Below are positions 38,704-58,942 of a stretch of DNA of 64,000 nt, piece after piece (position 1 is the stretch's first letter; each line of letters begins with the position of its first letter). The stretch is taken from contig NZ_JASZYG010000008.1 in assembly GCF_030317105.1 (NCBI RefSeq), forward strand, positions 1 to 64,000, given 5' to 3'. A program made the position numbers and the translations under genes. The DNA is from Variovorax brevis (GTDB lineage: Bacteria > Pseudomonadota > Gammaproteobacteria > Burkholderiales > Burkholderiaceae_C). The notes beneath the pieces were generated by a model, which ran no database searches, had not been told where the DNA came from, and saw nothing but the letters and a program-made list of their open reading frames with translations.

Positions 38704-38727
38704 AAATCAAGATAAGGGCGCTGCCAA

Positions 38728-39575: not shown

Positions 39576-39639
39576 CATGGTGTAACCGGAACGTGAACAA
39601 AGTCGCGACCAATGGTCAATCAGTAACTTGCTAGTTGGT

Positions 39640-39654
39640 TGGCACAGATGGTGC
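39640..39654 (+). promoter_or_regulatory. Sigma-54 promoter of pilA
   Basis: TGGCACAGATGGTGC matches TGGCAC-N5-TTGC except for one base, with GG and GC ten bases apart as required for RpoN. The start site would fall near 39666, giving a leader of about 50 bases. Major pilin genes are commonly RpoN/PilR dependent. Confidence 0.75.
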
Positions 39655-39715
39655 GGAAGACGAGACAGCTCCGGGGAGGTCCCGGGGTCTGACAAACCAA
39701 CCTGGAGTTTTTGAC

Positions 39716-40189
39716 ATGAACCGTCGTTCCATTGCACGCAAGGTGCAGAAGGGTTTCACCCTTATTGAATTGATGATCGTTGTGGCGATCATTGGTATCT
39801 TGGCTGCCGTCGCACTTCCGGCCTACCAAGATTACACCGTCCGTGCGAAGGTGTCGGAAGGTCTCACGTTGGCCGGCTCCGCCAAGGTTGCCGTGGCAGA
39901 AAATGCCGCGAACGGCAAGGGTTATAAATCTGGCTGGAATGCGCCAGCAGCGACGAACAACGTTGCGTCGGTTGACATTGTGGATGCTACTGGCGTCATT
40001 ACTATTACGTACGCAACCGCCATTGACGGCGGCAACAAGACGATTCTTCTGACCCCTAAGTCGGGTGGAATTGCTTTCACCGGTGGAACTACCACCGCAA
40101 GCAGCATCCCCACGGGTGGCTCCGTTGAATGGGACTGCACCGGTGGCTCTTTGCAGGCAAAGTATCGTCCTGCCGCCTGCCGCACCTAA
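39716..40189 (+). CDS. pilA: Type IV major pilin PilA
   Basis: A 157-residue type IVa prepilin. The 13-residue leader [13 protein letters not shown] ends at the PilD cleavage site before [10 protein letters not shown]; the mature N-terminus has Glu5. The hydrophobic helix continues through [25 protein letters not shown]. Two cysteines near the end (EWDC and AAC) can form the D-loop disulphide. GGAG lies nine bases upstream of the ATG. It is preceded by a sigma-54 promoter and followed by a terminator, so it is monocistronic. Confidence 0.96.
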
Positions 40190-42594: not shown

Positions 42595-42818
42595 CTCGGA
42601 TGGTCGCCATGCTGTCAGCGAAAAGTCGTTTAAGCGATCTCGCACCGGGCCCGGCCCACTGCAATCGACCTCGGCGCCTTTTTCTCTCTAACTTCGCCTG
42701 CTGCGCTCACTAACCGACGCAATGTCGCACACGGTGCGCGGCAGCATCGATCGACACACAGGCTGGGGCCTTCGAACGCCTGATTTGGCATTCGTCTCGC
42801 TGACCACTGATTAATACG

Positions 42819-43997
42819 CTAGGCAGCCCATGAGGGCGCTTCAACTCCCGCTACCGGTGACGCGTAAAGCACGAGGTCATAGTAGTAGCTGCCGTTGTGC
42901 TGGCGCAGGCGGAAGTGATAGTCGTCAACACTCTTGTCGAATTGATCCATGACGTCCAGCAGGTCATGAGCGTAGTGATAGACGCACGCAGCAACGCGGG
43001 GGCGTTGACTATTCAACAACCGCGCGCCCCCTTGCAGAGTTTTCGCCTCGAAGCCTTCGACGTCCATTTTGAGGAACGTTAAGTTCTCAAGTTCGTCATC
43101 AAGCTTTGTGGTTTGAACGGCGACCCCGCCATCCGCAGAGACGTAGCTTGACATCGTTCCCGTTTCCATAAAACGCAATGTCTGCCGGCGGCTCGAAACG
43201 GCCTTGTTGACTGCACGAAAGTTTGGCAGCGGCAGCGGCCTGACTTGCTGGAGCGCTTCAAAGTTGGGCCGGTCCGGTTCAAACGCCGTGATGCTGGCGT
43301 AGCGGTGGCGGGTTGCGCCCAAGAATTTCGAAACAATGGGTCCTTGATAGGCGCCACAGTCGCAAAAATGCTCGTTGCTGCCGAGCCTGAAGGTAGACGG
43401 GGTGGCGTAGGTCGAAAAATATTCTTCAATCGGGTTGGCCCACGTCGCAATCATGTGGGAACGATCGTAGGTGATGCGAAACAACAGGTTCGCATAGAGC
43501 GTGGCGCGGCTATGGTCGTCCGAAAGCCGATCCGCCAGACGCAAGAAGTCATCCATGCGCTCAAGCGTCTTGCGGCGATATTCGGCAGCAGGCTCGTATA
43601 CCGACACCAGGCCAAGTTGCGCTTGGGCCACGACGCAATCCTTGCGCTCAACGCCTGCTCGCTCGCAGAGATCCGCGAACATGGCACGTGCACCCGGTTC
43701 GCACGAAAAATCAATCGCGACCGCACCTCGGTGTTGACCGGCGCGTTGCATGAATTGTTCGCTCGTCCATCGTTCAACGCCATGAATGGTCGATGCCGTT
43801 GAAAAGTCATCCACCACGGCAACAACTCCTTTCGCGGCGGCTACGATAGCGGGACCATGAATATTTCCCAGCAATGATTGCGGTGCAAGAATAAATACAG
43901 GGCGGCTATTCAGCTCGGAAATGGTGGCTTCTGAACCCTCCGCGCTCGCCTCCATGAGTTGAGCTCTTAGTTTTTCAGAAAGTGTTGAGTACATCAT
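42819..43997 (-). CDS. FkbM-family SAM-dependent methyltransferase
   Basis: A 392-residue protein. Residues about 1-170 form an uncharacterised N-terminal region (with PVFILAPQSLLGNIHG and a VVAVVDDFSTAS segment resembling a nucleotide-sugar-type Rossmann half). Residues about 205-350 form an FkbM methyltransferase, with DCGAYQGPIVSKFLG and ITAFEPDRPNFEAL binding SAM and FLKMDVEGFEAKTLQGG typical of the family. FkbM enzymes O-methylate sugars and polyketides. It follows the hexapeptide protein after 18 bases, and could methylate the sugar or acyl group made by this cluster. Confidence 0.87.
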   Translation of the reverse strand: MMYSTLSEKLRAQLMEASAEGSEATISELNSRPVFILAPQSLLGNIHGPAIVAAAKGVVAVVDDFSTASTIHGVERWTSEQFMQRAGQHRGAVAIDFSCEPGARAMFADLCERAGVERKDCVVAQAQLGLVSVYEPAAEYRRKTLERMDDFLRLADRLSDDHSRATLYANLLFRITYDRSHMIATWANPIEEYFSTYATPSTFRLGSNEHFCDCGAYQGPIVSKFLGATRHRYASITAFEPDRPNFEALQQVRPLPLPNFRAVNKAVSSRRQTLRFMETGTMSSYVSADGGVAVQTTKLDDELENLTFLKMDVEGFEAKTLQGGARLLNSQRPRVAACVYHYAHDLLDVMDQFDKSVDDYHFRLRQHNGSYYYDLVLYASPVAGVEAPSWAA

Positions 43998-44015
43998 TTA
44001 TCTCGTGCAATGAGT

Positions 44016-44663
44016 TCAGCTAGTAGAAATGGCGCCTCCGCCATCAACGACGACGATGCCGGTTGGGAAGGCGGTGGTAATAAACGTCTTGTCTGGTAGT
44101 GGGGAGCTACGTCTGCCAGGTAGGTCCAGCACACACTGACGGCCGATGGATACACCATCGTCCACAACGACGCTGCGTCCGAGCGAGGCATTTGCTCCGA
44201 TCTTGGCGTGCACGCCGAGCTGTGCGCCATCCGCGATCCAGGCGGACGTGCCAACAATCGAATGGTGGCCAATGATTGCTCCGGCCCCGATATGACTGTT
44301 GAATCCGATCTTGCACCCGCTACCGACAACAGACGCTGCGCCAACTGCGCAGTTTTCGCCGAGCGTGGCAGATGAGCTCACGATTGCACCCTTACACACC
44401 AGCGGAGGCAGCTTGAAGCCGCGCGCCTTTAACTCCCCCATGAGTTCGAGTCGGCGAAAGTTCAAAAACTGGGAGCCCCATACAACAAATGCTGTCGCGT
44501 CCTGAGGCGAAACGTCGTCGAGGGCGCCGAGCTCGAATCGGTAGTCGGCATCCTGGCCAACGTCGATAGGAATCAGTAGCTCTTCTGGTGATACCTCGGC
44601 CCAAGCGGACACTGCCCAGACAAGAAGGCTCCCGGTGCCGATGACGAACTTCTTAGAGGGCAT
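44016..44663 (-). CDS. Left-handed beta-helix (hexapeptide) acyltransferase, PglD-like, copy 1
   Basis: A 215-residue protein. Residues 1-90 form a PglD-type N-terminal domain (KKFVIGTGSLLVWAVSAWAE, FVVWGSQFLNFRR), and residues about 90-200 a hexapeptide-repeat helix (IVSSSATLGENCAVG, IGAGAIIGHHSIVG). The histidine pair in GHHS lies where PglD has its catalytic base. It may N- or O-acylate an aminosugar. The start overlaps the Rieske stop by 11 bases and has GGAGG six bases before it, so translation is coupled. Confidence 0.82.
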   Translation of the reverse strand: MPSKKFVIGTGSLLVWAVSAWAEVSPEELLIPIDVGQDADYRFELGALDDVSPQDATAFVVWGSQFLNFRRLELMGELKARGFKLPPLVCKGAIVSSSATLGENCAVGAASVVGSGCKIGFNSHIGAGAIIGHHSIVGTSAWIADGAQLGVHAKIGANASLGRSVVVDDGVSIGRQCVLDLPGRRSSPLPDKTFITTAFPTGIVVVDGGGAISTS

Positions 44664-45804
44664 GGCGCCCCTCCATGACGTCCATGTACCAACGCTCGAC
44701 TGCCGAGTTGGCGTATTCGTAGTCGCCCAATGTTGCGCGCGGTGAGCCGGGGCGCAGGCTGGATTGAACCCTTTCCATGACGTCAATATCCTCGCGAAGC
44801 ACCTTTTCGGCGCCTTCAAGGTGCGCGAGCAAAACGGCAGCCGAAGTTGCGTAGCGGCGCGTCTTGCGGGCGGTGACGTAGTAGACGGTGAGTTCGGTGC
44901 GCGATGCAGACACCGGTTGGTGATGCTCGATGATGAAGGAGTAGCCGCCCGAGCCCGAAGCGACGTGTAAGTTGGGAAAGACCAACCAGTTGAGGTACCA
45001 GTCGTCCTTGCCGTAGCGCGCTACGTTGTCGTGCCAAGCGTAATGCCGTAGTTGTCCAAGGGGTTCGTTGAGTCCACCGCTGCTGAAGCCTCGCAGCGTC
45101 TCAAGATGACCTTCGAGGTTGGGGCTTCCTTGGGCGCGGTAGGCGCGAGAGGCCGCGATCCCAGCCTCGTCCATTCCCACTTGAAACTTCACTTGCTGGT
45201 AAAGCGTACGCGAATGCACGAAGCGCGGATGCATGCTGTCGCGCAGGTTCTCGTAAGCGAGCTTCCAGTTGCAGCGCATTTCAAAGGTGGCGATAAGGAC
45301 TTCATCGTCGAACTGCTCAGATGCTGCGCGCAAGCTCTCGAGCGCCTCCATCGAAAATTGCGCTTCAATGGGTATTGGCTGCTCGCTGAGGTTCACGAAA
45401 ACCAAGCTTCCGATGCACGCCAATGCATAGCGCTTAAGCTTGAGGCACGCGCGTTCTTCCTGCGGCAATCGGTATGCCTCGTCGTGGAACGGAATGTTCT
45501 CCACCGCGCCGTCGGCTCGGTATCCCCACCCGTGGTAACTGCAAACGAGTGGGCGAACGCCTTGTGGTTGTTGTTGCAACGGATTCTGGCGGTGCAGGCA
45601 CACGTTGTCGAAAGCGCGAAGCTCGCCGTTGAAGTTCTGCACCACCACATCCACGCCACAAATGCTTCGGCGCAAGAAGGAATTGTGCTTCCCCAGCAGC
45701 ATGCGTGGACCGACAAACTGCCACAGCGGGCGCATCAGCAACTCGCGCTCGCGCGCGAACCAGGATTCATCAGCGTATGCCTCTGCCGGCATCAGGGAAC
45801 GCAT
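44653..45804 (-). CDS. Rieske [2Fe-2S] non-haem iron oxygenase, copy 1
   Basis: A 383-residue oxygenase alpha subunit. The Rieske cluster ligands are C69-x-H71 and C88-x2-H91. The mononuclear iron site follows as D189-x2-H192-x4-H197 after CNWKLAYENL, with the distal aspartate likely in EDIDVMERVQ. All ligands are present, so it should be active with an external ferredoxin/reductase, which is not encoded here. Members hydroxylate or demethylate aromatics, choline-like amines or acyl groups. Location among ACP and acyltransferase genes suggests an acyl or sugar substrate. Confidence 0.9.
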   Translation of the reverse strand: MRSLMPAEAYADESWFARERELLMRPLWQFVGPRMLLGKHNSFLRRSICGVDVVVQNFNGELRAFDNVCLHRQNPLQQQPQGVRPLVCSYHGWGYRADGAVENIPFHDEAYRLPQEERACLKLKRYALACIGSLVFVNLSEQPIPIEAQFSMEALESLRAASEQFDDEVLIATFEMRCNWKLAYENLRDSMHPRFVHSRTLYQQVKFQVGMDEAGIAASRAYRAQGSPNLEGHLETLRGFSSGGLNEPLGQLRHYAWHDNVARYGKDDWYLNWLVFPNLHVASGSGGYSFIIEHHQPVSASRTELTVYYVTARKTRRYATSAAVLLAHLEGAEKVLREDIDVMERVQSSLRPGSPRATLGDYEYANSAVERWYMDVMEGRHAL

Positions 45805-45805
45805 G

Positions 45806-46465
45806 TCAGGATCTCTTTAGAAAGTTGTAGCCCGCGCCAACTACCTGCGCAAGGCCGGGCATTTCCGGCTCGACAAAACTGCCATCGGCCAGTGAGCGGG
45901 TCCAAGGACCCGGATGGTCGATGGTGCAATGACGCCCTATTTGAAGGCCTGCACGGACATGGACGTCCGCACCAATCGCACTGTGCGTGCCGACCTGCAC
46001 ACAGGCGCCCAAAGATGCGCCTGAGCCAATCCAGCCGTGTGCGTGAATGCGAGCCTTCTCGTCGATGCGGGAACTCACATTGATCATCACGTTACTGTCG
46101 ATCCGACAGCCGGTGGCCACGCGCGCGCCTGGGCCCACCCAGACGTTGTCGGCAAGGCGGGCTCCGGGGGACACCCATGCGGTGGGGTGTACAAGCGTCG
46201 CCATCTTCAGTCCGGCCAATCGCGCAACGCCGTACAACTCCAATCGAGCGTAGTTGAGAGCTTGCGCATCGACCGCAACAAACAGCAATGTCGTCGTCGG
46301 ATCGATGCCGGCAAGCAACGCGCTTGCTGTTCCAGCAAGTTGCGCCACTCCGGCGGCAGGACGCATCTCCCAGCCGGCATCTGCCCCGTACGCATGCGTC
46401 TCGGCCGCAATCGCGTCAAACACGCTACCAACGCCGACCAGGCAATACGACATGGACGCGCTCAT
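45806..46465 (-). CDS. Left-handed beta-helix acyltransferase-like protein, copy 2
   Basis: A 219-residue protein with a PglD-like N-terminal domain (YCLVGVGSVFDAIAAE, LLFVAVDAQALNYAR) and a hexapeptide helix (TLVHPTAWVSPGARLADNVWVG, ASLGACVQVGTHSAIGADVHVRAG, cited in parts). The PglD-type base histidine seems replaced: the matching turn reads SSRIDEKARIH. The start at 46465 overlaps the second Rieske stop as ATGA with GGAGGG six bases upstream; an ATG two codons earlier has no room for a ribosome site. It may be a structural partner or use a different catalytic residue. Confidence 0.78.
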   Translation of the reverse strand: MSASMSYCLVGVGSVFDAIAAETHAYGADAGWEMRPAAGVAQLAGTASALLAGIDPTTTLLFVAVDAQALNYARLELYGVARLAGLKMATLVHPTAWVSPGARLADNVWVGPGARVATGCRIDSNVMINVSSRIDEKARIHAHGWIGSGASLGACVQVGTHSAIGADVHVRAGLQIGRHCTIDHPGPWTRSLADGSFVEPEMPGLAQVVGAGYNFLKRS

Positions 46466-47607
46466 AGGCATCCCTCCGGACCCAAAAGGTCAAGGTAGGC
46501 GTCGGCAGCAGAGCGCAGACTCGCCTCGTAGCGCCCTTGCTGCGCACGCGGCGCACCGAGATGCAGGTGCGACTGCAGCGCTTCAAGGTAGGCAATGTCT
46601 TCGTTGACCACGGCAGCCTCGCCTTTGAGATAGGTCCGCAATAAGGCCGGTAGTCCCGGCATGCGGCGCTTCTCGCGCGCGAGGGTCAAAGTCATGCGCA
46701 GTTCTGTTTGGCCGGGCGCCACGGGTTCGAACTGCTGGGCGATAAAAGTCAATCCACCTGGTGAGATGAAGTTGACGTTCGGAAAAATGGAGAAGGTATG
46801 AAATAGGTCGCCGTCGCCATATCGTTCAACGGATTCGTGCCATGGCCAGCTCTCCACGCGAAATGGGGTGCTCTCCAGACAACTTTGCGCCTGTAATTTG
46901 GACAAAGCGATCGACTCGCCTGCCGGCAATGCATTGCGCGATGCGGGCGCTGTTGTCGGCGACAACTGCTTGTGCGCGGTTGCACCTTCCCGCAACAAGG
47001 GCTGAAAACTCTTGGGATGAACGTATGGAACGTGATTGCCGTCCAGCACGTTCTCGTAGTTGAACTTCCAGTTGTACCGAACGGGAATGTTGACGTGAAC
47101 CGCCTGCGACGCAAAGTGGGACGAGGCTTCTGCCAATGCTGCCTGAAATCCGCGCGTGAACTGATCGTCCACAGACATCGGCGACACATCGAAGTTGATA
47201 AAGACCAAGTTCCCGATGACTGCGACGGCATAGCGCCGCAAACACAGTCGTTCGCGTTCCTCCGCCGGATAGGCGTAGAGCGTCTCTTCGTGGGGGATGG
47301 ATTTGACTTTGCCTTCGTCATCGAAAACCCAGCCGTGGTACGGGCACACCATTCGCGCCTGCCCGAAGGCTTCCCTTTGCAGCGGCATCTGGCGATGTGG
47401 GCAAAGGTTCTCGAAGGCGCGGATGTCTCCCCCGCAGTTTTGAAGCAGCACCGGAAGGCCCGCCATCGTTCGCGTCACGAACGCACCCGGTTCGGCCAAC
47501 GACGTCCGAAAAGCGGCGAACAACCAGAGCTTGCGAAAAATCCGCTCGCGCTCAAGGTCGAAGATGGCCTGGCTCAGATAGTGAGCAGGCGTGAGTCTGG
47601 ATAACAC
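46462..47607 (-). CDS. Rieske [2Fe-2S] non-haem iron oxygenase, copy 2
   Basis: A 381-residue paralog of the neighbouring oxygenase. The ligands fall at exactly the same residue numbers: C69, H71, C88, H91 for the Rieske cluster and D189, H192, H197 for the iron. NEDIAYLEALQS would supply the last aspartate. The start is a GTG. The identical ligand spacing points to duplication, while the low identity elsewhere points to a distinct substrate. It too lacks a reductase partner in the window. Confidence 0.9.
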   Translation of the reverse strand: MLSRLTPAHYLSQAIFDLERERIFRKLWLFAAFRTSLAEPGAFVTRTMAGLPVLLQNCGGDIRAFENLCPHRQMPLQREAFGQARMVCPYHGWVFDDEGKVKSIPHEETLYAYPAEERERLCLRRYAVAVIGNLVFINFDVSPMSVDDQFTRGFQAALAEASSHFASQAVHVNIPVRYNWKFNYENVLDGNHVPYVHPKSFQPLLREGATAHKQLSPTTAPASRNALPAGESIALSKLQAQSCLESTPFRVESWPWHESVERYGDGDLFHTFSIFPNVNFISPGGLTFIAQQFEPVAPGQTELRMTLTLAREKRRMPGLPALLRTYLKGEAAVVNEDIAYLEALQSHLHLGAPRAQQGRYEASLRSAADAYLDLLGPEGCL

Positions 47608-47622
47608 CGTGAGGGCCTGAAC

Positions 47623-48279
47623 CTAGCGAAAGTTGAATGGTTTGGCAGGATTGCCCATGACCGTGGTGTGAGGTGCAACATCGCGTATCACCACACTGCC
47701 TGCGCCGATGACGGCGCCATCGCCGACGCGGACGCCGGGAAGAATAGTTGCATGGGGATGGACGACAACGTCGTTGCCAATCTGCGCGCCCCCGCCAATG
47801 AAAACGAAGCTGCCAATCTGGCAGTAGTCGCCGATGCGAACGTCGTAGCCGACGATGGTGGTCGATAAGATGGTGACGAATTCACCGAGGTGCACATCAG
47901 GGCCCAGCGACACCTTTCGCTCGAAAATGCAGCCGCGCGAGATATGCGCCCGTTCGCCGACGTGCATGTCCGTCTGCAAGCGGATGAAATCGGCGCCCTT
48001 TGCGCTCAGGGGCGCGGAGTAGTGACGACGTTGGGCGGGGTCTCCCAAGGCGCAGATAAAGATGTCGCCGTAAACGATTTCGTACGTGAGGGGATCACCC
48101 AAGATCGGAAGGTCTGATGGCGTAGTGATATCCGGTCGGTTGTCCAGAAAGCCCTTGACGTCCCAATGCACGCCGCATGCGACGTCGGACCTGGCGAGGC
48201 TGGCCATGGCGCGTCCAAAGCCGCCTGCGCCGATCACGATGAGGTGGTTAGGGACTTTCGGAGTCGGCGTTGAAGTCAC
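47623..48279 (-). CDS. PglD-like sugar acyltransferase, copy 3
   Basis: A 218-residue protein with the N-terminal Rossmann-like domain of PglD (LIVIGAGGFGRAMASLAR, FLDN, ILGDPLTYEI) and a C-terminal hexapeptide helix ending VIGAGSVVIRDVAPHTTVMGNPAKPF. The base position reads VGYDV, so the canonical histidine seems absent. The GTG start overlaps the upstream SDR stop (GTGA). It likely transfers an acyl group to an aminosugar, or completes a trimer with the other two copies. Confidence 0.85.
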   Translation of the reverse strand: MTSTPTPKVPNHLIVIGAGGFGRAMASLARSDVACGVHWDVKGFLDNRPDITTPSDLPILGDPLTYEIVYGDIFICALGDPAQRRHYSAPLSAKGADFIRLQTDMHVGERAHISRGCIFERKVSLGPDVHLGEFVTILSTTIVGYDVRIGDYCQIGSFVFIGGGAQIGNDVVVHPHATILPGVRVGDGAVIGAGSVVIRDVAPHTTVMGNPAKPFNFR

Positions 48280-49043
48280 GTGTATTCGACGCCCCCGTCA
48301 AGACTGAACACGGTGCCTGTGATCTTGCTACTGGCATCCGACAAGAAAAACAAGCAGGCCCACGCGACGTCTTCAGGCTGCCCGACATCAAGCGGATAGC
48401 GTTTGCGAATAGAGTCGAACCAGTCCGCGTCGATTGTGGTCAATGGAGTCTCGACGATCCCAGGCGCCAACGCATTCGCTCGAATACGACGCTTTGCAAT
48501 CTCCAGGGCCAAGGGGCGCATCGTGCCGATAAGAGCCGCCTTTGAGCCGGCATACGGCCCGAGGCCCACTGTTCCGGTCACAGCTGCAATTGACGAGAGA
48601 AAGACGATTGAGCCGCCCGGCTTGATGAATGAACGACTAAGCAAATGACGCGTCAGCATCATCGGCGCGATGTAGTTGGACTCCATGACCTCGCGCAGGA
48701 AGTCATCGCCCACCATTTTCATGGGTGAAAGACCGCGGATGCCTGCACTGTGTACGACGCCGTCAATTGGCCCGCAGTCGAGGGCCAACTGACGTAGCGC
48801 GCCCATGTCGGTCAGGTCTGCAGGCAGCGCCTTGTGGCCATGACCTGGAAGGCTTTCGAGCGTTGCCCGAAGTCGTTCGCGGTCGCGTCCCGATAGTACG
48901 AGTCGCGCTCCAGCTTCGGCGCAACTGCGAGCGACCGCCTCGCCGATCCCCCTCGAGGCGCCGGTGATTAGTACAGTCTTGCCTTCAAGGCCGAATAGAT
49001 GGCGCGCGACCTGACCAGAGCTCTCCGAAAGTGTTGTCATCAT
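48276..49043 (-). CDS. SDR-family oxidoreductase (FabG-like), copy 1
   Basis: A 255-residue short-chain dehydrogenase. TVLITGASRGIGEAV is the cofactor loop, NYIAPMMLTRHL the helix with the conserved Asn, serine in VFLSSIAAVTG and YAGSKAALIG the catalytic Tyr/Lys; PGIVETPL follows. It probably reduces a beta-ketoacyl-ACP made by the KAS III of the same operon. It overlaps the PglD-like gene and follows the second SDR after two bases. Confidence 0.88.
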   Translation of the reverse strand: MMTTLSESSGQVARHLFGLEGKTVLITGASRGIGEAVARSCAEAGARLVLSGRDRERLRATLESLPGHGHKALPADLTDMGALRQLALDCGPIDGVVHSAGIRGLSPMKMVGDDFLREVMESNYIAPMMLTRHLLSRSFIKPGGSIVFLSSIAAVTGTVGLGPYAGSKAALIGTMRPLALEIAKRRIRANALAPGIVETPLTTIDADWFDSIRKRYPLDVGQPEDVAWACLFFLSDASSKITGTVFSLDGGVEYT

Positions 49044-49045
49044 TT

Positions 49046-49840
49046 CTAGATCCGCATCGGAATGCCCAAACCGCCGTCGACCGTCAGCGTGGAGCGAGTA
49101 ATCCAGCGACTGGCTGCGGAAAGCAGGAAGCAGACGGATGATGCGACGTCCTCTGGCGCAAGCCTGCCCAACGGCGTGAGATCGATCTTTTCATCCATTC
49201 CCGCCTGAGCGCCCAATCCTTTCAGCATGGGTGTTTCGACATACCCTGGCGCAATGCAATTCGATCGGATGCGAAGCTTTGCTTGTTCGAGCGCCAGCGT
49301 ACGCGACGCTGCTTCCAGAGCGGCCTTCGAGGCGGCATAGCCCGCGGCGGCCTGTGGAGCCGCGTTGGCCGAGAGAGCAGTCACGAACACAAGTGATGCG
49401 CCAGTACGCAAACGCTTCTTGTAGAGCAGGCGCTGGGTCAACGTGATCGGCGCGAGGTAATTCACCGACAGCATTTTTTGCAGGTGCGTTTCGTTCGCCA
49501 TGCGAAGAGGCACGAGTGCCGCGACCCCGGCGCACGAAGCCAAGCCGTCATACTCCGCGGCTTCAACAAGGGCCTCTCGTGTTTCGACAAGGGAAAGATC
49601 GCCCGAAATTGCCACGTGGCCATCGCCGGCGAGCGCGCCACGTACAGCTTCAAGGCGCTCGGTGTCACGACCATTTAGCACTGTTCGTGCGCCCAGTTGG
49701 GCGCACAGGCGCGCCGTCGCGGCACCAATGCCCGAAGACGCGCCAGTCACAAGGATGACGCGACCTTCCAGCGAAAACGCATTGGTTGATGCAACTCGCC
49801 GGTCCGGATTTGAGACGGGAGCGTCGAAGGGCAGCGTCAT
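49046..49840 (-). CDS. SDR-family oxidoreductase (FabG-like), copy 2
   Basis: A 264-residue short-chain dehydrogenase with VILVTGASSGIGAATARL, VNYLAPITLTQRL, ALSANAAPQAAAGYAASKAA as catalytic Ser/Tyr/Lys region and PGYVETPM. The FVTA segment has Thr where FabG often has Ser, and the serine sits two residues later. It overlaps the KAS III stop by four bases. With copy 1 it gives two reductases or a reductase/dehydrogenase pair for the ACP-bound chain. Confidence 0.88.
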   Translation of the reverse strand: MTLPFDAPVSNPDRRVASTNAFSLEGRVILVTGASSGIGAATARLCAQLGARTVLNGRDTERLEAVRGALAGDGHVAISGDLSLVETREALVEAAEYDGLASCAGVAALVPLRMANETHLQKMLSVNYLAPITLTQRLLYKKRLRTGASLVFVTALSANAAPQAAAGYAASKAALEAASRTLALEQAKLRIRSNCIAPGYVETPMLKGLGAQAGMDEKIDLTPLGRLAPEDVASSVCFLLSAASRWITRSTLTVDGGLGIPMRI

Positions 49841-50874
49841 GAAATCAGCAAGGGCGGAAACTTGGCACCATCAATTTCCAGCACACATGTGCCCCACGAG
49901 AGGCCTATTCCAAATCCACCCAACACAAGTCGATGACGCCCCTTGCTCAACGACTCCTGGATGCGCGCTGTCATCGTCACTGGCAGCGATGCACCGCTGG
50001 TGTTGCCAAAGTCGTGTAATGTCGAGGGCACCTTTTCTGCGGGCAGCGCCAACTTCTTGCGGATGGTTTCATTGATCATCCGGTTGGCCTGGTGAAAGAT
50101 GAAGTAGTCGATGTCGTCCGTCGTGGCGCCTGCAAATTCGAGCACACGGCGCACGGAAGGCGGCACCTGCTGGGTGGAAAAGCTGAGGACGGCCGGACCA
50201 TCAAGGATCAATTCCGCGGGCCAATGGAGGACGCCGTTCTCGTCGCGCGTGGGAACAGCGTGCTGCGGACCGAAGGGCTCACGATGCCCACCGACAGGCA
50301 GCATGATCGCGCGATAACCGGTCCCATCGCTGTTCAAATCAAAATGCATCGGCGCAGCGTTCGCGTCGAATTCCAGGGCCGTCGCCGTGCCCGCATCCGA
50401 AAAGAGTGGGTCATTCACGGTGGCGCAACGGTCACCCACCAGCACGAGCCCCTTCTTCACAGCACCCGACGCGATCATGCTGCCCAAGATGTGGATTCCG
50501 AAAGGATAGCCGGAGCATCCCAGGTTCACGTCGAACGCAATGGTGGCGCTGGACAATTTCAGGCGGTCTTGCAGGATGATCGCCGTCGCCGGAATCAGGT
50601 AGTCAGGCGACTGCGTCACAACGATCAGCGCGTCGATTTCGTCGCGCCGCCACTCCAGGTCTGCCAACAACCGCTCCGCAGCATCGAATGCCAGATCCGA
50701 AAAGCACTGCCAGTCCGCGCAAATTCGTCGGTTCTGGATGCCTATGTTTCGAACGAGGCGTTCGCGCTCAGAACGCATCTTGGGCGCGCAGTCGTCCAGG
50801 TTCGAAAGGACTCGCTTGGGAACGCAACTGGCCATGCCAGCGAAACGAACGTTGTGTAGCGTCGACAGGCCCAT
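49837..50874 (-). CDS. 3-oxoacyl-ACP synthase III (KAS III, FabH-like)
   Basis: A 345-residue thiolase-fold condensing enzyme. The catalytic triad is Cys120 (VNLGCSGYPFG), His261 (FIFHQANRM) and Asn291 (FGNTSGAS). KAS III enzymes join a starter acyl-CoA to malonyl-ACP. Located next to a dedicated ACP and two SDRs, away from the fab genes, it should serve a special short acyl chain and not bulk lipids. It starts six bases after the ACP stop. Confidence 0.92.
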   Translation of the reverse strand: MGLSTLHNVRFAGMASCVPKRVLSNLDDCAPKMRSERERLVRNIGIQNRRICADWQCFSDLAFDAAERLLADLEWRRDEIDALIVVTQSPDYLIPATAIILQDRLKLSSATIAFDVNLGCSGYPFGIHILGSMIASGAVKKGLVLVGDRCATVNDPLFSDAGTATALEFDANAAPMHFDLNSDGTGYRAIMLPVGGHREPFGPQHAVPTRDENGVLHWPAELILDGPAVLSFSTQQVPPSVRRVLEFAGATTDDIDYFIFHQANRMINETIRKKLALPAEKVPSTLHDFGNTSGASLPVTMTARIQESLSKGRHRLVLGGFGIGLSWGTCVLEIDGAKFPPLLIS

Positions 50875-50880
50875 GGCACC

Positions 50881-51129
50881 TTACCCCAGCAACTTGTACA
50901 GGTCGGCGATCGTGACGCAGTTCTTCAGGTCGTCACCGACGATGGTCTTGCCGTAGTCGACGTCGAACATGACGATCACGCCCAAGGCCGCGAGCGAATC
51001 CCATTCAGGCAGGCTGCGCAGCTCGGTGCCAGCCTCCACTTCGACCGGATCCTGAAAATCGACGGCAATCAGGAAGTTTTCGATGAATTGCTCGATGGTC
51101 GGCAAGCTTTGCTCTGTGAGTGTTTGCAT
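50881..51129 (-). CDS. Acyl carrier protein
   Basis: An 82-residue carrier protein. The phosphopantetheine serine is Ser45 in the motif WDSLAALG. Helices I-III and the acidic surface (FQDPVEVEAG, FDVDYG) fit the family. It is separate from the primary AcpP and is encoded directly before the KAS III gene. It would carry the acyl group built by this cluster. Confidence 0.9.
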   Translation of the reverse strand: MQTLTEQSLPTIEQFIENFLIAVDFQDPVEVEAGTELRSLPEWDSLAALGVIVMFDVDYGKTIVGDDLKNCVTIADLYKLLG

Positions 51130-51222
51130 GGGTGTAGTAATTGGTATTAAGCCGTCGCGTGAATGACGACTTAGTGGTTGAACGAAACGATGGCTATCGC
51201 CTGGACGCTGTAGTGATCGAGT

Positions 51223-52326
51223 TTACGGTTGTTGAACTATGTTGATAACGCGTCCAACATCCTGAGCGCTCAGGTCGGCATAAATTGGCAGACACAGCAC
51301 TTTTTGTGCCGCCTCTCGGGCAGTCGGCAGGTTCGAAGGGTGTGCCGACGGCATTCCGCGATACATCGGAAAGTCTGCGATCAAAGGGTAGAAATAGCGC
51401 CGCGCATAGATCTCGTTCTCCCTCAGCCTTTGATACAAATCGTCCCGGCTCAGCGGGTATTCGGGCCCCACCAGTATCGGAAAGTAAGAATAGTTCGCCG
51501 TCAGCTCTTTGGATCCGCTCAAGCAGCGTATGCCGGGTACTTCGGCAAGTTGCCTTCGATAAATGGAATCGATGTCTCGGCGCTTGCGCAGCGACTTGTC
51601 GATATGGGTGAGCTGCAGCATGCCGAAGGCCGCGTTGATCTCACTCATTTTGCCGTTGATGCCGGCCTCAACGACGGTGGTTTCATTGACGAAGCCGAAA
51701 TTCTTTAGATGATCGATGTGCCGCTTCGTCTCCGCATCAGGGCAAATGATCGCGCCGCCTTCAAAGGTGTGAAAAACCTTGGTCGCATGAAAGCTGAGAA
51801 CCGACAGGTTGCCGTGCCGCAATATGCTTCCGCCGGTGTCCCGTACGCCGAAGGCGTGCGCCGCGTCGTAAATGACCTTGAGATTGTGCTTGTCAGCGAT
51901 TTCTTGGATTGCCTCGACATCACACCGATGCCCATAGCAATGCACTGGCAGGATCGCGGTCGTGCGCGATGTGATGGCTGCTTCAATCTTGGCAGGATCT
52001 AGACCGAGCGTCTCAGCCTTGATGTCTACGAAGACGGGTTGAATTCCGTTCCATAGCAATGAATGGGCACTGGCAACAAAAGAATAAGGCGTGGTAATGA
52101 CTTCGCCACTCACCCCCAGTGCCTGCAGGGCTGTCACCAGCCCCAAGGTGCCGTTCGAGCATAGGGCCAGATGTTCGACGCCGAGGTATTCACACAGCGC
52201 CGTTTCCAGCTGCTGATGGAATGGACCCCCGTTCGTCAATATCTTGTTGGCCCATATCTGCTGCAAGAACGGAAGAAATTCTTCCAGCGGTGGCAGATCT
52301 GGCTGGGCGACGTAAATCGGCGTCAT
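51223..52326 (-). CDS. DegT/DnrJ/EryC1-family sugar aminotransferase
   Basis: A 367-residue PLP enzyme. The cofactor lysine is Lys183 in SFHATKVFHTFEGG and the aspartate pairing with the pyridine nitrogen is Asp154 in VIYDAAHAFG. It converts a keto-nucleotide sugar to an amino sugar. VioA/FdtB-like enzymes of this subgroup act on dTDP-4-keto- or 3-keto-6-deoxyglucose; which carbon is aminated cannot be decided here. It overlaps the glycosyltransferase stop (ATGA). Confidence 0.9.
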   Translation of the reverse strand: MTPIYVAQPDLPPLEEFLPFLQQIWANKILTNGGPFHQQLETALCEYLGVEHLALCSNGTLGLVTALQALGVSGEVITTPYSFVASAHSLLWNGIQPVFVDIKAETLGLDPAKIEAAITSRTTAILPVHCYGHRCDVEAIQEIADKHNLKVIYDAAHAFGVRDTGGSILRHGNLSVLSFHATKVFHTFEGGAIICPDAETKRHIDHLKNFGFVNETTVVEAGINGKMSEINAAFGMLQLTHIDKSLRKRRDIDSIYRRQLAEVPGIRCLSGSKELTANYSYFPILVGPEYPLSRDDLYQRLRENEIYARRYFYPLIADFPMYRGMPSAHPSNLPTAREAAQKVLCLPIYADLSAQDVGRVINIVQQP

Positions 52327-54272
52327 TGAGTGATTTCCAAGACGTGCGCCTTTTCACAGTACTCTTTCCAACATCCTTCAATGGCTTTTTCCAGTGAAGT
52401 CGTGACCACCGACGTGAGTTCTCCGGTCACATCAGCCATTTTTTCGCGAAGCATCAGACGAACTTGGCTAAGCTCGTCAAGGTGCTCAGAAAAGTAGATT
52501 GCGTTTTCGACATAGGCCGCTGCAGTGTCTCCACAGAAGCGACCAAGCCCAAAGCCCTTCATGACGGAAGACCCGACATTCGAAAGAGAAGAACTGCCGT
52601 CGAGCGCGACAATGGGAACACCCATCCAGAGTGAATGAAAAGTCGTCGTACCGCCGTTGTAGGGGAAGGTATCGAGCGCCAGATCAATTTCATGATGGAG
52701 CGCAAGGTACTCCTGGAGCGAGACCTTGGGATGAAAAATCAATCGTGTCGGTTCAATACCTCGACGGGAGAATTGAGCCGATAATTTTTCAATCAGGTCC
52801 GGCGTGGCATTTCCAAGCATGAGCCTTGACGATGTGTTCCTTCGCAAGATCTCAGCCCACAAGTCAATAACGTCATCCGTGATTTTAGATGGGTTGTTCA
52901 GGCAGCCAAAGGTAAAGGGGGCGCCGCTGAGCGCGGGCAACTCATTCACCTGAGGGCTATCCGGCGCAGGGTTGAAGGTGCCGCAAGCGGGAAGGCGCAG
53001 CAGAGCTTCAGTGTGGAATTTCTCGGTCGCACCAATAGGGTCGAGCGCTTCATCCGTGATACGAAAGTCGATCGCACGAAGTCCAGTCGTGGCCTGATAT
53101 CCCAGCCAAGTCATCTGAACTGGCGCCGGCTTGCGCGCGAACACAAGCAACCGGTTGTGCGCGGTGTGGCCGGACAAATCGATCAGCACATCGATTTCGT
53201 CAAGGCGGATTTGCTTCGCAAGGTCTTCGTCCGTCATCCCATGGCAGGGCGTCCATTGATCTGCCATTTCCTTGATCCGCTGGGAGGTCGCATCGTGGAC
53301 GGGATGGGAGTAATAACAATAAATTTCGAACTTTGTCCGGTCGTGGCGGGCAATGATGGGCGCAATAAAAAAGGACAATGCGTGAGCGCGCAAATCGCCT
53401 GACACGTAACCGATTCTAATCCTCTGTCGAGCTAACAGGGATCTCTCGTAATTGCCCCATTGCGCCTTAAGTGGGTTCTCAAATAGCGATGCGAACTCGA
53501 CATGCGCCTCGAATCGCTCCTGATGCGAGAATTTGTTGCTATATTGGATGCAAAACAGATAATTGCTGAAAATTGACGCTACATCAGGTGCGAGGTGCCG
53601 CGCCTTTTCCAAAAACTCTGCGGCCTTTTCGAGGTCCCCTGTTTGCATTAACGCCGTGCCGTAGTTCGAAAGTACATTCGGCGAGTTTGGTTGCAATTCG
53701 ATGGATCGTGGGTAAATTTCCGCCGCCCGCGCGTAGTCCCCGCCTTCTGCGTACAGATTGCCCAAGTAGAACAGGAAGTTGGCATTTTGAGGGTAATGGG
53801 ACAGACCCGTCTCGATAAGCCTTCTCGCTTGGGGCAACTTGCCTTTGTTGAACAGCAAAAGGCAATAGTCAAGATAGAGGTGCTCAAATTCAGGCGAAAG
53901 GGCGTGTGCCTTGTGCCACGCAAGTTCTGCCATCTCGAAGTCGCCTGTTTCGAAATATACTTTTCCAAGCATGTAGAAACCATCGATGCTCTTGGAATCC
54001 AGCGCAACTGCTCTTTGCAGGGCGTCAATCGCCTCCTTGAATTGATGTGTCTCCAGCAGGGCAAATCCAAGACCAATGAGCGCTGAAAGGCTCTTGGGGC
54101 GTGCGGCGGCAAACCGTTTGTAACACTCGATCGCCTTGGGAAAATCCTCGTTTTGAACCGCAATATTGCCTTGCCGCAAGAGATCTTCCAGCGCAACCGC
54201 CTCTGCCACTTCGGAAGGGCGATCGGCACCTGCGAAGAATTTTTGCAGGCTATTTTTGAGGGAATTGAACAT
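52323..54272 (-). CDS. TPR-repeat O-GlcNAc-transferase-like glycosyltransferase (SPINDLY/GT41 type)
   Basis: A 649-residue cytoplasmic protein. Residues about 40-240 form five or more tetratricopeptide repeats (for example ALQRAVALDSKSIDGFYMLG). Residues about 270-630 resemble the catalytic part of O-GlcNAc transferase/SPINDLY: RIRIGYVSGDLRAHAL, DVLIDLSGHTAHNRL, MTWLGYQATTGL, IDFRITDEALDP, TFPYNGGTTTFHSLWMGVP and GRFCGD. It likely attaches the cluster's sugar to Ser/Thr of a protein. The ATG lies two bases after the preceding small gene. Confidence 0.88.
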   Translation of the reverse strand: MFNSLKNSLQKFFAGADRPSEVAEAVALEDLLRQGNIAVQNEDFPKAIECYKRFAAARPKSLSALIGLGFALLETHQFKEAIDALQRAVALDSKSIDGFYMLGKVYFETGDFEMAELAWHKAHALSPEFEHLYLDYCLLLFNKGKLPQARRLIETGLSHYPQNANFLFYLGNLYAEGGDYARAAEIYPRSIELQPNSPNVLSNYGTALMQTGDLEKAAEFLEKARHLAPDVASIFSNYLFCIQYSNKFSHQERFEAHVEFASLFENPLKAQWGNYERSLLARQRIRIGYVSGDLRAHALSFFIAPIIARHDRTKFEIYCYYSHPVHDATSQRIKEMADQWTPCHGMTDEDLAKQIRLDEIDVLIDLSGHTAHNRLLVFARKPAPVQMTWLGYQATTGLRAIDFRITDEALDPIGATEKFHTEALLRLPACGTFNPAPDSPQVNELPALSGAPFTFGCLNNPSKITDDVIDLWAEILRRNTSSRLMLGNATPDLIEKLSAQFSRRGIEPTRLIFHPKVSLQEYLALHHEIDLALDTFPYNGGTTTFHSLWMGVPIVALDGSSSLSNVGSSVMKGFGLGRFCGDTAAAYVENAIYFSEHLDELSQVRLMLREKMADVTGELTSVVTTSLEKAIEGCWKEYCEKAHVLEITQ

Positions 54273-54274
54273 GC

Positions 54275-54589
54275 CTATTTGCACTTTAACAAGAGCCAAG
54301 TGGTTGTCTTGTCCGAGAATTCCTGATCGTAGCCGTTGTCGAGGAGTGTATATTTGAACGCGCTGCCCAATTGTGCCTTGGAGAGGATGTTCAGGCGATT
54401 TATTTTCTTGAATTGATCCAGGTGTTTTTCAATCAGGAGGAGTGTGCCTTCATGACGTTTTTCGCTTTTCTTGATCGACTTTGCTTGCGCGTGCTTTTTT
54501 GTTTCGTTCTCCGCCCTCTCGATCAGGAGCAGCGCCATTTCGGTGCCGAATTGTTTTGCCGCGGCAGAGCCGAACAATTTTCCAAACAT
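54275..54589 (-). CDS. Small hypothetical protein coupled to the glycosyltransferase
   Basis: A 104-residue protein, mostly helical and rich in Lys and Glu in the middle (ERAENETKKHAQAKSIKKSEKR). It starts MFGKLFGSAAAKQFG and has no signal peptide or membrane helix. I recognise no family. It is first in the island and its stop is two bases before the glycosyltransferase ATG, so the two are translated together; a chaperone or partner role is possible. Its codon use is distinctly AT-richer than the pil genes. Confidence 0.65.
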   Translation of the reverse strand: MFGKLFGSAAAKQFGTEMALLLIERAENETKKHAQAKSIKKSEKRHEGTLLLIEKHLDQFKKINRLNILSKAQLGSAFKYTLLDNGYDQEFSDKTTTWLLLKCK

Positions 54590-54745: not shown

Positions 54746-57700
54746 TCAATTCATCGTCACGCGCCGCCACATGATCCGTGTGGGAGTCGTCGACGATGGT
54801 ATCGCTACGTCATACACCTTCGTCTTGCCATCCGACGTCCGCACCAGGCTCTTGACGGAACCATTCGGCAGGCCTTCAGGCTGCACGCGGCTGGCCAGCA
54901 CATTGCCCACGTGGCGGCTGGGCAGGTTGGGAATGGCCCCGCCGGTGGAGTAGTTCAGGAAGTAGAGATTGGAGCTACCCCCCGGCGAGCAGGCGTCGCT
55001 CGAAGGGACGTTCGTCGTGAATGCAATCACACCTTGGAAGAGGACGGGGCTCGTGTACGAGCGCTCTCCTTGCGGCGTCGTTGCAAAGTCGAGCACCCAA
55101 CCCTTCTTGGTCGTGAGGCTCACGGGATTGGTCGTCACATTGATGGCTGCACCGTCGGCGGTGCCCGTGGCCGTTGCCGTCTGGGCGACCAGTTGCGTGC
55201 GCAAGGGCGTGATCGTCGGCGTCGTGGTCTTGTCATCCTTCAGGCCATAGAACGATTGCCGCTGGGTCGCACTCGCATTGGCTCCCGTGGCACCCGGAAT
55301 GTCCTTGCCGCCCAAGTATTGGCCGGTGCCGACGTAGATCATCCGGTTGCCATCCACAACGCCCATGTCCGGCGCGCCGGTGATCGGTTGGGCGGTGCCG
55401 CTCGCGTCCACCAGCGTGGCAAGACGCTTGACGTTCCAGTTGGTGACTGCATCGCCCGACAGGTCGAAGCGCCACACATTGCCCAGCAGGTCGCCTCCAT
55501 AGACAAAGTCCGCCGTGTCATCCACGCCGGGGTTGACCAGATACGCGCTGACTTTCGCGAGGCCGCTCGGCGCCGCGCCAGAGCCCGCCGTCGTGGGAAT
55601 GTCCTTGATCAACGCGCCGGTGGCCGTGTTCAAAACAAAGAGGTGGCCCTTGCCATCTCCGCCGGTCGTGTCGGTGCCGTTGTTGTAGCCCGAGGTCACC
55701 AGCGTCACCCAGCCCGCGGCCTTGGTCTTGACGGTGAGGGGCGTGCCGTAGGTGTTGCCGACGTTGGCCTTGACGGTGCTGTCGGTGCCTGCATTGGGAA
55801 ACTCCCACATGACCTTGCTGGCCACGTCAGCGTCCGAACTGGCGTCGGGGTTGGTGACGTTCAACGCATAGTAGCCGCGGCCGCCTGCCCCTAGCCCGCC
55901 CACGAGCACCGTGGCCCAGTTGACACCGGAAGGCGTGGGCTGGTTGGCGTAGGTGTTCGTCAGGTCCACATCGGTCGCAGAGGGCGTGCCGTTCACGTAG
56001 AAGCGGTGCTGGAAGGTCGGCGGAGATTGCGTCAAGCCGACCAGGGAACTGAGGCCCGTGCTGCTGGTAGAGAGGTTGGCGTTGACCACGCCGCCTGGCA
56101 CGTAGGCCCACAGCTCATTCCCGCTCGTCGCGTTGAAGGCGTGGAGCATGCCGTCGTTGGCGCCCTGGTAGACCACCTTGGTTCGATTGGCAACCGTCGT
56201 GCCGCCCTTGAAAGTGGCATAGCCCGAATCCGTATAGGCGGAACGCGGTGCCGACACATAGGTCGGCTCTGCATCGACGATGTCGCCCAGCACATGGAGG
56301 CGCGTGCGATACGTGCCTGTCGGCTCGCTACTGCGGTCGCCTCGCAAATAGCTGATCACCGCTGCGTTGTCTGTTGCGGTCGAAGACGAGTTGAGCCGCG
56401 ACGCCAGGGTGCCCAAGCCAGTCGCCGTAAAGGCCACGCCGGCCGCGCCATCGAAGCTGCCGATATATCGCGAGCCGAACGCCTTGTCGTCCAGCAGGGA
56501 TTGGGCGGACCATAGTGCTGCGGAGGACAGCAGGCCGGTGTTCAGGTCGATGGAGTAAGCGTTGAGGTCTCCGTACCAAGCGCCCGAATTGAAGCTGGAC
56601 GCGTAGGCCGTGTTGTCGCCCGACTTGACGTTGGGGTTGCTCACCGCCACCGAAGCGGAGGACGCAGTGCGGTTGACGATGTCGTTGAGGATGGATGCCA
56701 GCGCAGTCTGCAGCTTGGCTGGGTCCTTGGTGTCGAAGTACTTGCCGTGGCCGTTGAGCGCTGCATGCCAGAGGTCGTCGATCGCCGTGGCAGAGTCTGC
56801 CGACGGTGCGGGCCAGCTAGACGTGCCCGTCGGCGGCGTGCTCAAGGTTCCGCTTGCACCCAGGCCAATGGTGTACGTCACCATGTGCTGCCAGGTGGCC
56901 GGGTCGAAAGCATTAGAGAGGACGCTGCCCGCCGAGCTACCCGCGAGGTCTGAGATCCAGTATTTCATGGCCACGTCCGAGAGCGAACTGGACGTCGAGG
57001 TGCCGTCATAGAAGGGCGCCGGGAAGTTGTTGCCCGCCTTCAATGGAACGCCGGCGATCGGATCATTGACGTCTAGGCCCGTTTCAGCGTCTCGATAGAC
57101 GTTCGCTGGCAAGGTCGGCACGGTCTTGTCCTTGTTGCCCACGCTAGGAAGGTCCCCGTTCCAATAGCCGTCCGTTGAAAGGATTGAATAGTTGGGCGTG
57201 CAGGCAAGGGGAACCGTCGTCGAGCGATTGGTCGTGTCCGCCCCGGGCATGGTCCCCGTCTGGAAATACTGCCCCGCCCGGTCGAGCGCCGCAACCAGCG
57301 GTGTGCCGCCACTTGGATTGATGGCGTAGAGCTTCGAATACCAGGTTGACTTCTGCGTGCTGTCGAAACTCGCCAGAGGAACGAAGTTGCTGTTAGGGCT
57401 GTTGATGGTCGCAAAACCGACGCGCGACTTGGCATCAAGGGCCGAAAACGCGAGGCCGAGCGTGGTCTTGGCCGTCAGGATGCGGGTTCGGTAAAAGGCA
57501 AACCAGTTGGCGAAGTTCTGGATTTCCTGGTCGTAAGTGCAGGTCGTTCCGGTCCCGCAATCTGTTCTTGAGGCGGCCTTTGAATAGGTGGTCGTCGTCG
57601 GAAGTATTTCTACGCGGTTGTAGTTATCGTCGCTGTCCTGGCCACCGCTGCCGCTTTCAGTGGTGCTGCTACTGCCTTTCCACACGTAATAAAAGGCGTA

Positions 57701-58252: not shown

Positions 58253-58942
58253 TCAACCGAATGGCAATTCAATGGTTGTCTGGACGATGCTGCTGGTGTT
58301 GCGCGGACCTTGGACACGCACGGTCACCCGGTAATGGATCGTCGGGCGGGTCGCCGGTGGCGGCGTCAAGCTGCCGAACACGTTGGTCGTCTGGGCGTGG
58401 CTGTCCTTGTCATCGCCGACGGAGCCGCCCACGGCAAAGGGCTGCCCGGCCACGCATTTGCTCGTGAGCGCCGTGAGGGCATCGGTCGCCGACGGGGCGG
58501 TGGAGCACAGGCGATCGATGACGTACTGCACGCGATACAAGGACTCGTCCGTGCAACTGATGGCGGTGGTGCCGCCCACCGTGTCGTAGCAGGGCACGTT
58601 CGCCCAGGTGATGGTGCTCGGCACGCCGTAGGAGTCGGTCGCCTGCATGAGGCGGTAGTACTGGTTGGCAACGTTGACATCCGCCGCTGCCAGCGCTGGC
58701 AACGCATTGAAGGCGCGCTCTGCGCCCGTATCCGCCGCCGTGGTCGTGGCTTGCGCGAAGGCCACGTTGCCGGACACGACCCCGGCCGTGTCGGTCGAGC
58801 GCACGAGCGAGAGCGCAGCCAGCGAAAGGATCAGCAACGCGATGAGCGCGATAAAGACGATGACCCCGCGTTGGGCGCCGGCCTGGCCGCGAGAATGCCG
58901 TGCCTTCGGCACAGGCTCGGGAACGAATTGGACTTGTTTCAT
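58253..58942 (-). CDS. pilX: Minor pilin assembly protein PilX
   Basis: A 229-residue PilX-type protein. A hydrophobic helix (GVIVFIALIALLILSLAALS) after a positively charged N-terminus stands in place of a classical pilin helix, with R-G before it as in PilX. Conserved RSTDTAGVVSGNVAFAQ follows. It overlaps pilW by four bases and precedes pilY1. It forms the tip complex with PilVW and PilY1. Confidence 0.9.
   Translation of the reverse strand: MKQVQFVPEPVPKARHSRGQAGAQRGVIVFIALIALLILSLAALSLVRSTDTAGVVSGNVAFAQATTTAADTGAERAFNALPALAAADVNVANQYYRLMQATDSYGVPSTITWANVPCYDTVGGTTAISCTDESLYRVQYVIDRLCSTAPSATDALTALTSKCVAGQPFAVGGSVGDDKDSHAQTTNVFGSLTPPPATRPTIHYRVTVRVQGPRNTSSIVQTTIELPFG

Follow-up and report, generated by a model that had tools for sequence, protein, structure and literature searches.

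On which molecule is an acylated aminosugar placed when the genes that would make it lie between those of a type IV pilus? This question is raised by the first 64 kb of contig NZ_JASZYG010000008.1 of Variovorax brevis (assembly GCF_030317105.1, positions 1 to 64,000), the whole of which is called the window here. In it, a cassette of thirteen packed minus-strand genes, running from 54589 down to 42819 with an AT3-SGNH acyltransferase gene behind it, has a major pilin gene on one side and a minor-pilin/pilY1 operon on the other, as revealed by domain searches. We consider it likely that this is a flagellin-type N-acyl-aminosugar cassette, with a product twice oxidised by Rieske enzymes, which has been re-targeted to type IV pilin by a dedicated GT41 glycosyltransferase together with a small protein, s104.

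The source genome (8.59 Mb in 83 contigs, 99.82% complete, 4.48% contamination) was searched with profiles for flagellin (PF00669) and FliG (PF01706). No match was obtained for either, with 4 of 14 controls positive in each case (E. coli and B. subtilis among them); flagellar families other than these two were not searched. On the present assembly, flagellin is therefore excluded as the target in this genome. Since the cassette lies between pilus genes in a genome without flagellin and FliG, it most likely decorates pili. The first-pass annotation of this DNA had the glycosyltransferase attach its product to protein; a pilus protein is now predicted as the most likely acceptor, flagellin having dropped out.

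A wider claim has, in our estimate, about an even chance of being right. It holds that prepilin is O-glycosylated in the cytoplasm, in the manner of SPINDLY and OGT, with a doubly Rieske-oxidised N-acyl aminosugar, and that the cassette has repeatedly switched between flagellin and pilin loci, GT41 and s104 fixing the acceptor. If true, a cytoplasmic GT41 enzyme could glycosylate pilins in place of the periplasmic transferases usually described, and one decoration program would be swapped between the two surface filaments of bacteria. The locus would also provide a clean test system, with one pilin, one transferase and a sugar pathway with two defined oxidation steps, for which congeners offer empty, one-Rieske and two-Rieske sites for comparison. 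Moreover, it would provide two Rieske oxygenases with tightly paired beta-helix partners, the substrate being narrowed to an acyl-aminosugar. No description of the two-Rieske form, or of a pilin site with a dedicated GT41/s104 pair, was found among the open-licence papers listed.

Gene content and predicted pathway

The features of the cassette and its flanks are as follows.

39635-40189, plus strand: major type IV pilin, PilA-like, bordering the cassette (PF00114 Pilin, 1.6e-17; N_methyl, 8.9e-11)
40618-42645, minus strand: AT3-SGNH (OafA-like) membrane O-acyltransferase, accessory (PF19040, PF01757)
42819-43997, minus strand: FkbM-family methyltransferase with N-terminal extension (PF05050; TIGR01444 above cut-off)
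44016-44663, minus strand: LbH2, a non-canonical left-handed beta-helix (LbH) protein paired with Rieske B
44653-45804, minus strand: Rieske B oxygenase, Fe ligands present (PF00355, PF00848)
45806-46471, minus strand: LbH1, a non-canonical left-handed beta-helix protein paired with Rieske A
46462-47607, minus strand: Rieske A oxygenase, Fe ligands present (PF00355, PF00848)
47623-48279, minus strand: VioB/PglD-type sugar N-acyltransferase (TIGR03570)
48276-49043, minus strand: short-chain dehydrogenase (SDR) 2, FabG-like (PF13561)
49046-49840, minus strand: short-chain dehydrogenase 1 (PF13561)
49837-50874, minus strand: KAS III, FabH-like (PF08541, PF08545)
50881-51129, minus strand: dedicated acyl carrier protein (ACP), 82 residues (marginal NCBIfam ACP match, E 0.034)
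51223-52326, minus strand: DegT sugar aminotransferase, DesI/perosamine-synthase class (PF01041, 1.2e-100)
52323-54272, minus strand: TPR and GT41 glycosyltransferase, SPINDLY/OGT-like, 649 residues (PF13844)
54275-54589, minus strand: s104, a 104-residue helical protein (no family match; four-helix model with a predicted local distance difference test score, pLDDT, of 76.5)
54746-58228, minus strand: PilY1, at the end of the minor-pilin operon (PF05567)
58253-61615, minus strand: minor pilins, namely pilX-like (by position, no family match), pilW, pilV, fimT/gspH-like and pilE-like

The tight leftward packing described in the first-pass annotation was borne out, as all 14 genes are open reading frames (ORFs) and the gaps between them run from -11 to +18 nt, only the ACP gene (preceded by 93 nt) and the AT3 gene (preceded by 173 nt) being set further apart. 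Domain matches agreed with its gene identities for 12 of the 14 proteins, s104 having no family and the ACP only a marginal match. The neighbouring pilA is likewise real, the N-methylation motif being present alongside PF00114. In the direction of transcription the order is s104, TPR-GT41, DegT, ACP, KAS III, two SDRs, VioB-like, Rieske A, LbH1, Rieske B, LbH2 and FkbM, followed by AT3-SGNH. This order is beyond chance, because a large part of it is found again in the 23 loci compared, which belong to several families. The GC fraction of the cassette genes (0.47-0.62, against 0.645 in the remaining window) is lower, as expected of acquired DNA. Two gene starts were corrected, that of LbH2 to 44663 and that of GT41 to an internal ATG at 54272, 2 nt after the s104 gene. 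The ACP frame gave no Pfam match; it carries the motif E-W-D-S-L and has relatives of 63-88% identity at the same position in the proteobacterial cassettes painted. The best solved relatives of DegT are 2po3 (listed as a 4-dehydrase) and perosamine synthases, and a VioA-like role is proposed for it. In the painted stretches of the four other carriers in the genus, the AT3-SGNH gene had no counterpart at the site.

The enzymatic steps, their order, the chemistry of the glycan and its acceptor were inferred from gene content. The early steps are modelled by analogy on Pseudomonas syringae. DegT would aminate a nucleotide 4-keto-6-deoxysugar to a viosamine-type 4-amino sugar, i.e., a 4-amino-4,6-dideoxysugar, while KAS III, the dedicated ACP and the SDRs would provide a short beta-hydroxyacyl-ACP. 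The VioB-like protein would move the hydroxyacyl group onto the sugar amine as an amide. Oxygen would be inserted into the acyl chain or the sugar by Rieske A and by Rieske B alike, each working with a beta-helix partner of its own, and FkbM may O-methylate the product. Finally, while prepilin (PilA, possibly also minor pilins) is still in the cytoplasm and unassembled, the TPR-GT41 enzyme would put the finished sugar on its Ser/Thr residues, with s104 as likely adaptor. The sugar-making genes are of the kind also present in flagellin islands, and the GT41/s104 pair would set the target.

The 47623-48279 protein scored 161.7 bits with TIGR03570 (cut-off 160.8) and was the only hexapeptide protein to pass the VioB-type cut-off. 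Its closest solved relative is VioB (7txp) and the C-terminal NPAK is kept. The first-pass annotation had PglD-like proteins couple acyl to amine; that role may suit this protein, while it is unproven for LbH1 and LbH2, which fall below the NeuD/PglD/VioB family cut-off and lack the C-terminal NPA(K/R) element.

Could the cluster make a glycolipid, a surface polysaccharide unit or a diffusible acyl-sugar, so that the acceptor of GT41 is not a protein? Rieske oxygenases and AT3 acyltransferases are, as families, known from small-molecule and polysaccharide pathways. However, no flippase, polymerase, priming transferase or exporter domain was found among the 14 proteins, and the sole glycosyltransferase, the TPR-GT41, belongs to what is known as a protein-modifying class. 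We regard such a product as quite improbable. Glycosylation genes can adjoin the pilin gene also where periplasmic pilin oligosaccharyltransferases of the TfpO/PglL class operate. Unlike that class, the 14 proteins of the window cassette include no membrane oligosaccharyltransferase or flippase domain, a search that was not made genome-wide.

The glycosyltransferase, s104 and the pilin site

The GT41 protein matches PF13844 with 145 bits against a cut-off of 25, and several TPR models in addition. SPINDLY (7y4i) is its best solved relative, at 2.2e-93 over query residues 66-640. It resembles SPINDLY and OGT in having TPR and a GT41 catalytic region; it differs from them in being bacterial and linked to sugar synthesis genes and a pilin, and its donor is probably neither GDP-fucose nor UDP-GlcNAc. 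By family, the enzyme is taken as cytoplasmic. It is the sole GT41 found in the genome.

The GT41 enzymes sort by the filament locus in which they lie. A tree of 80 catalytic regions, built by a quick method, contained 23 pilin-side and 20 flagellin-side rows, labelled by a pilin-motif ORF or a FliC/FliD match within 8 kb, the 37 unlabelled rows being uncounted. Three label changes were needed, against means of 14.6 and 14.5 for shuffled labels and with none of 500 shuffles as low, a difference which near-copies inflate. The window GT41 falls in a set of seven (support 99) with five more pilin-side rows and L008. The s104 gene was found within 1 kb of 14 of the 80 GT41s, comprising 12 of the 23 pilin-side, none of the 20 flagellin-side and 2 of the 37 unlabelled rows. 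The four-helix model of s104, obtained from a three-row alignment, gave no significant structural match.

For comparison with the sugar genes, a KAS III tree of 27 rows was used, with ten Flavobacterium rows left out, L008 unlabelled, and L025 and L026 in the flagellin group. The five pilin-side rows do not form one group; three changes are needed, of which at least two are forced by well supported branches. Because GT41 sorts by locus whereas KAS III mixes, the simplest account would have GT41 and s104 stay with the pilin and the sugar cassette travel from one filament locus to another.

KAS III (E <= 1e-100) was found in 5 of 101 genomes of the genus, namely the window genome, G857, G808, G864 and G850. 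Each of these has the cassette flanked by pilA and the minor-pilin operon, and it is the end with s104, GT41 and DegT that faces pilY1. The carriers differ in their Rieske modules. The window and G857 have two, G808 has a single Xanthomonas-like module, and G864 and G850 each have one of a third type. The pilA-pilY1 distance is about 1 kb or less in G807, G795 and G882, and in G789 pilY1 lies about 1.5 kb from the next flank gene with no pilA found between. Other gene sets, including sugar or glycan genes, occupy the site in G802 and G849. A PilA search yielded 14 further pilA neighbourhoods, where ten proteins were scanned, four of them without a family. Some neighbourhoods (L230, L231) are nearly empty; among the others, L223 holds DegT with a GT2 transferase and a methyltransferase, and L224 holds DegT with a Polysacc_synt protein. 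Since the pilA-pilY1 interval is empty in some genomes and differently filled in others, it is a variable cargo site, sometimes with sugar genes.

It was also considered whether the GT41 acceptor is not the major pilin but PilY1, a minor pilin or an unlinked cytoplasmic protein. The s104 and GT41 genes are indeed nearest to pilY1 in all five carriers, and GT41 enzymes with TPR are known as a family in which specificity can be broad. Yet pilA borders the opposite side of the cassette in each of these carriers, and other genera have stretches (L152, L153, L155, L157) in which GT41 and s104 lie by pilA and no pilY1 was matched. We judge such an acceptor unlikely, and the major pilin is preferred.

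Around the pilin site some further genes may be recorded. In G814 and G865 a single PAP2/spermine-synthase-like protein of 1242-1260 residues fills the pilA-pilY1 site (L222:11266-15048, L225:1060-4788) and is possibly another pilin-modifying enzyme. Directly upstream of the first minor-pilin operon lies a second one (61836-63983 and L137) with its own PilY1, 69% identical to the first. On the other flank, beside pilA, FHA-domain, CHASE2-cyclase and metallo-beta-lactamase/class-II cAMP phosphodiesterase-like genes stand in a row (35762-39507), which is kept in the painted relatives of the genus; second-messenger control of pili is possible.

Relatives at flagellar loci

Relatives were sought in named genomes with both Rieske proteins of the window and one relative as queries, a scan whose counts are lower bounds, and 23 loci (L006, L008-L029) were compared in detail by gene painting. 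Xanthomonas, Pseudomonas and Acidovorax relatives have similar cassettes, mostly with one Rieske gene, close to flagellin. For the flagellar cluster of Xanthomonas (XCV2006-XCV2013), a published table lists an aminotransferase, ACP, 3-oxoacyl-ACP synthase, two SDRs, an acetyltransferase, a Rieske protein and a hypothetical protein (PMC3826837). As far as that table goes, the gene order is that of the window, and it is also found in loci L012-L022 and L029. The cluster lies beside fleQ and near flagellin, with one Rieske gene tabulated. The gigX1-10 island of X. oryzae, ten genes reported to determine flagellin glycosylation (PMC8657755, PMC6859632), is probably related to it. The window contains the DegT-ACP-KAS III-SDR-SDR-VioB-Rieske-LbH-FkbM set of the Xanthomonas type plus one extra Rieske-LbH pair; it differs in its two Rieske-hexapeptide pairs, in the directly linked GT41/s104, in the pilin site and in the absence of flagellar linkage. 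With a Rieske-containing order tabulated for Xanthomonas and the gigX island reported, the cassette itself is of a known kind, and its setting and likely target are new. Thus, the components of the pathway in the first-pass annotation (ACP, KAS III, DegT, acyltransferase, methyltransferase and two Rieske enzymes that keep their ligands) stand, while its view of a wholly new system has to be given up, given the tabulated one-Rieske order and the cassettes near flagellin in many genomes.

The modified-viosamine island of P. syringae (vioA, M, T, S, B, R and acp), examined by mass spectrometry of vioA, vioB, vioT, vioR and vioM mutants, is described as adding to a filament protein an aminosugar that bears an N-(3-hydroxybutanoyl) group (PMC3927599). 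Islands of this kind are defined by an N-(3-hydroxybutanoyl) 4-amino-4,6-dideoxyglucose as product. As listed for P. syringae, the island has in common with the window an aminotransferase, KAS III, ACP, reductase, acyltransferase and methyltransferase. By family, and without direct comparison to the P. syringae proteins, the window has homologues of VioA class, VioS, ACP, VioR and VioB, that of the ACP being weak. Unlike the window, the island has no Rieske protein among its seven listed genes and its target is flagellin, and its VioT is given as 1,173 residues against the 649 of the TPR-GT41.

These parallels raise the possibility that the window holds a flagellin glycosylation island as in Xanthomonas and Pseudomonas, placed beside pili by accident. 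The report on the gigX island and the vicinity of flagellin in similar loci speak for it, as 18 of the 23 loci have a flagellin-family (PF00669) gene on the same contig within about 20 kb (the shared contig was checked for 17). Nevertheless, the lack of both flagellin and FliG in the source genome contradicts it unless the assembly has lost flagellar genes. The four other carriers of the genus, moreover, do have flagellin and hold the cassette at the pilin site, on a contig other than that of flagellin. We therefore find this explanation highly improbable, and decoration of pilin remains preferred.

As to individual loci, the nearest flagellin-family gene of L025 is a weaker match, with a strong flagellin about 28 kb away. 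Flagellin-family genes lie on other contigs in L008, L010, L011 and L027, and about 1.1 Mb away in L028. Flagellin was present in 24 of 25 genomes tested, a set that covers 22 of the 23 reached through Rieske loci; the one without it is a Flavobacterium. Not all loci match in full: the identity of DegT drops to 28-29% in L006, L011 and L026, and painting showed no DegT in L009, L013, L024, L027 and L028. The PglD gene of G039 is a single frame, matched across 206 residues.

In L027 (Candidatus Burkholderia verschuerenii) Rieske A is split into two frames beside LbH1, and the remaining cassette is absent from the 13 kb. L028 (Xanthomonas sp. F10, 9995-11768) holds Rieske B, 76% identical to that of the window, and LbH2 without the remaining cassette, a pair perhaps acquired apart. 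Flavobacterium (L031-L035) has a divergent cluster in which two KAS III genes accompany SDR, Rieske and PglD-like genes, with an ACP match in 4 of 5; no flagellin was found in the L031 genome (G538), the one tested among them. These Flavobacterium loci were too divergent to be counted as the same cassette.

Rieske oxygenases and beta-helix partners

Rieske A and Rieske B of the window are paralogues of 34% identity. Both read C,H,C,H,D,H,H,D at the CxH/CxxH cluster and the two-His-one-carboxylate iron site, positions which we take to have their customary ligand roles. In an alignment of 44 rows, the four cluster ligands and both iron-site histidines are kept throughout; the bridging Asp is Glu in 9 rows and the last Asp is unaligned in 2. 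In the tree of these 44 proteins, six others join the window's Rieske A (support 100/98), and its Rieske B lies within a set of 23 (support 99/100). The nearest solved relatives of Rieske A are ring-hydroxylating dioxygenases and carnitine monooxygenase.

The first-pass annotation had suggested a database search for a conserved Rieske-hexapeptide-Rieske-hexapeptide order, and such conservation was found. Rieske-LbH-Rieske-LbH occurs in 7 of the 23 loci (L008, L009, L010, L011, L014, L024, L026). As L014 has a first Rieske protein that is not in the A clade, it is not counted, and at least 6 loci besides the window show the strict A+B order. A single Rieske gene was observed in 14 of the 23; L028 has Rieske B with LbH2 only, and L027 a broken Rieske A with LbH1 only. 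An LbH gene comes after each A/B-type Rieske gene in 22 of the 23 loci, in L006 after an intervening FkbM gene; the stretch of L019 ends too early to judge. The same succession is seen in G808, L190 and L193. Within the proposed pathway, these Rieske-LbH pairs stand out as the distinctive element.

In LbH1, H95 and H145 are invariant in 7 rows, while LbH2 has no invariant His in 14 relatives. Instead of acting as acyltransferases, the two proteins may hold the acyl-sugar for the oxygenase or present it. For LbH2, whose sequence profile ranks QdtC, LpxD and perosamine acetyltransferase first, acyl transfer is possible as well. Its structure model has a mean pLDDT of 68.9 and gave no significant Foldseek match (best E 1.4).

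Several observations weigh against decoration of pilin by a doubly oxidised sugar as proposed. In the VioB-like protein, Tyr replaces the usual His of GHD, presumably the catalytic residue of VioB-type enzymes, in the window and in L006, L008, L009, L010, L011 and L024; the His is kept in the Xanthomonas, L025 and L026 rows. Domain searches found no Rieske reductase among the 14 cassette proteins, so the electrons for the Rieske enzymes must come from elsewhere. Third-type Rieske genes (G864, G850, L193) and those of Flavobacterium (L033 rechecked) have a PglD-like neighbour and no LbH gene; since the third type occupies the same site in G864 and G850 without LbH, some Rieske enzymes of this kind can do without a beta-helix partner. 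The close two-Rieske relative L008 (Acidovorax A1169) has neither pilin nor flagellin in its 21 kb. Nor is GT41 generally tied to filaments. The neighbourhood of the best GT41 match was taken from 61 of the 104 other family genomes having one (399 searched), and it showed flagellar genes in 18, a pilin-motif ORF in 12, both in none and neither in 31. Finally, PilA type predicts the cassette poorly. Among the 19 genomes that have the nearest PilA type (E <= 1e-20), 4 hold the cassette, as does 1 of the 82 others, with kinship uncorrected; the carrier G808 has no listed match of that type. This weak enrichment was not used as a main argument.

The distant third Rieske type was met beside a PglD-like gene in L163, L164 and L193 (G864, G850 and G621, respectively), and at the pilin site in G864 and G850. 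Viral contigs scanned with Rieske A gave 5 pattern matches, none of them a relative, and phage origin is unsupported. In L030, a metagenome-assembled genome of Chthoniobacter flavus (Verrucomicrobiota), Rieske, LbH-like and FkbM-like genes are adjacent at 26-31% identity, an arrangement which suggests that the Rieske-LbH module is old.

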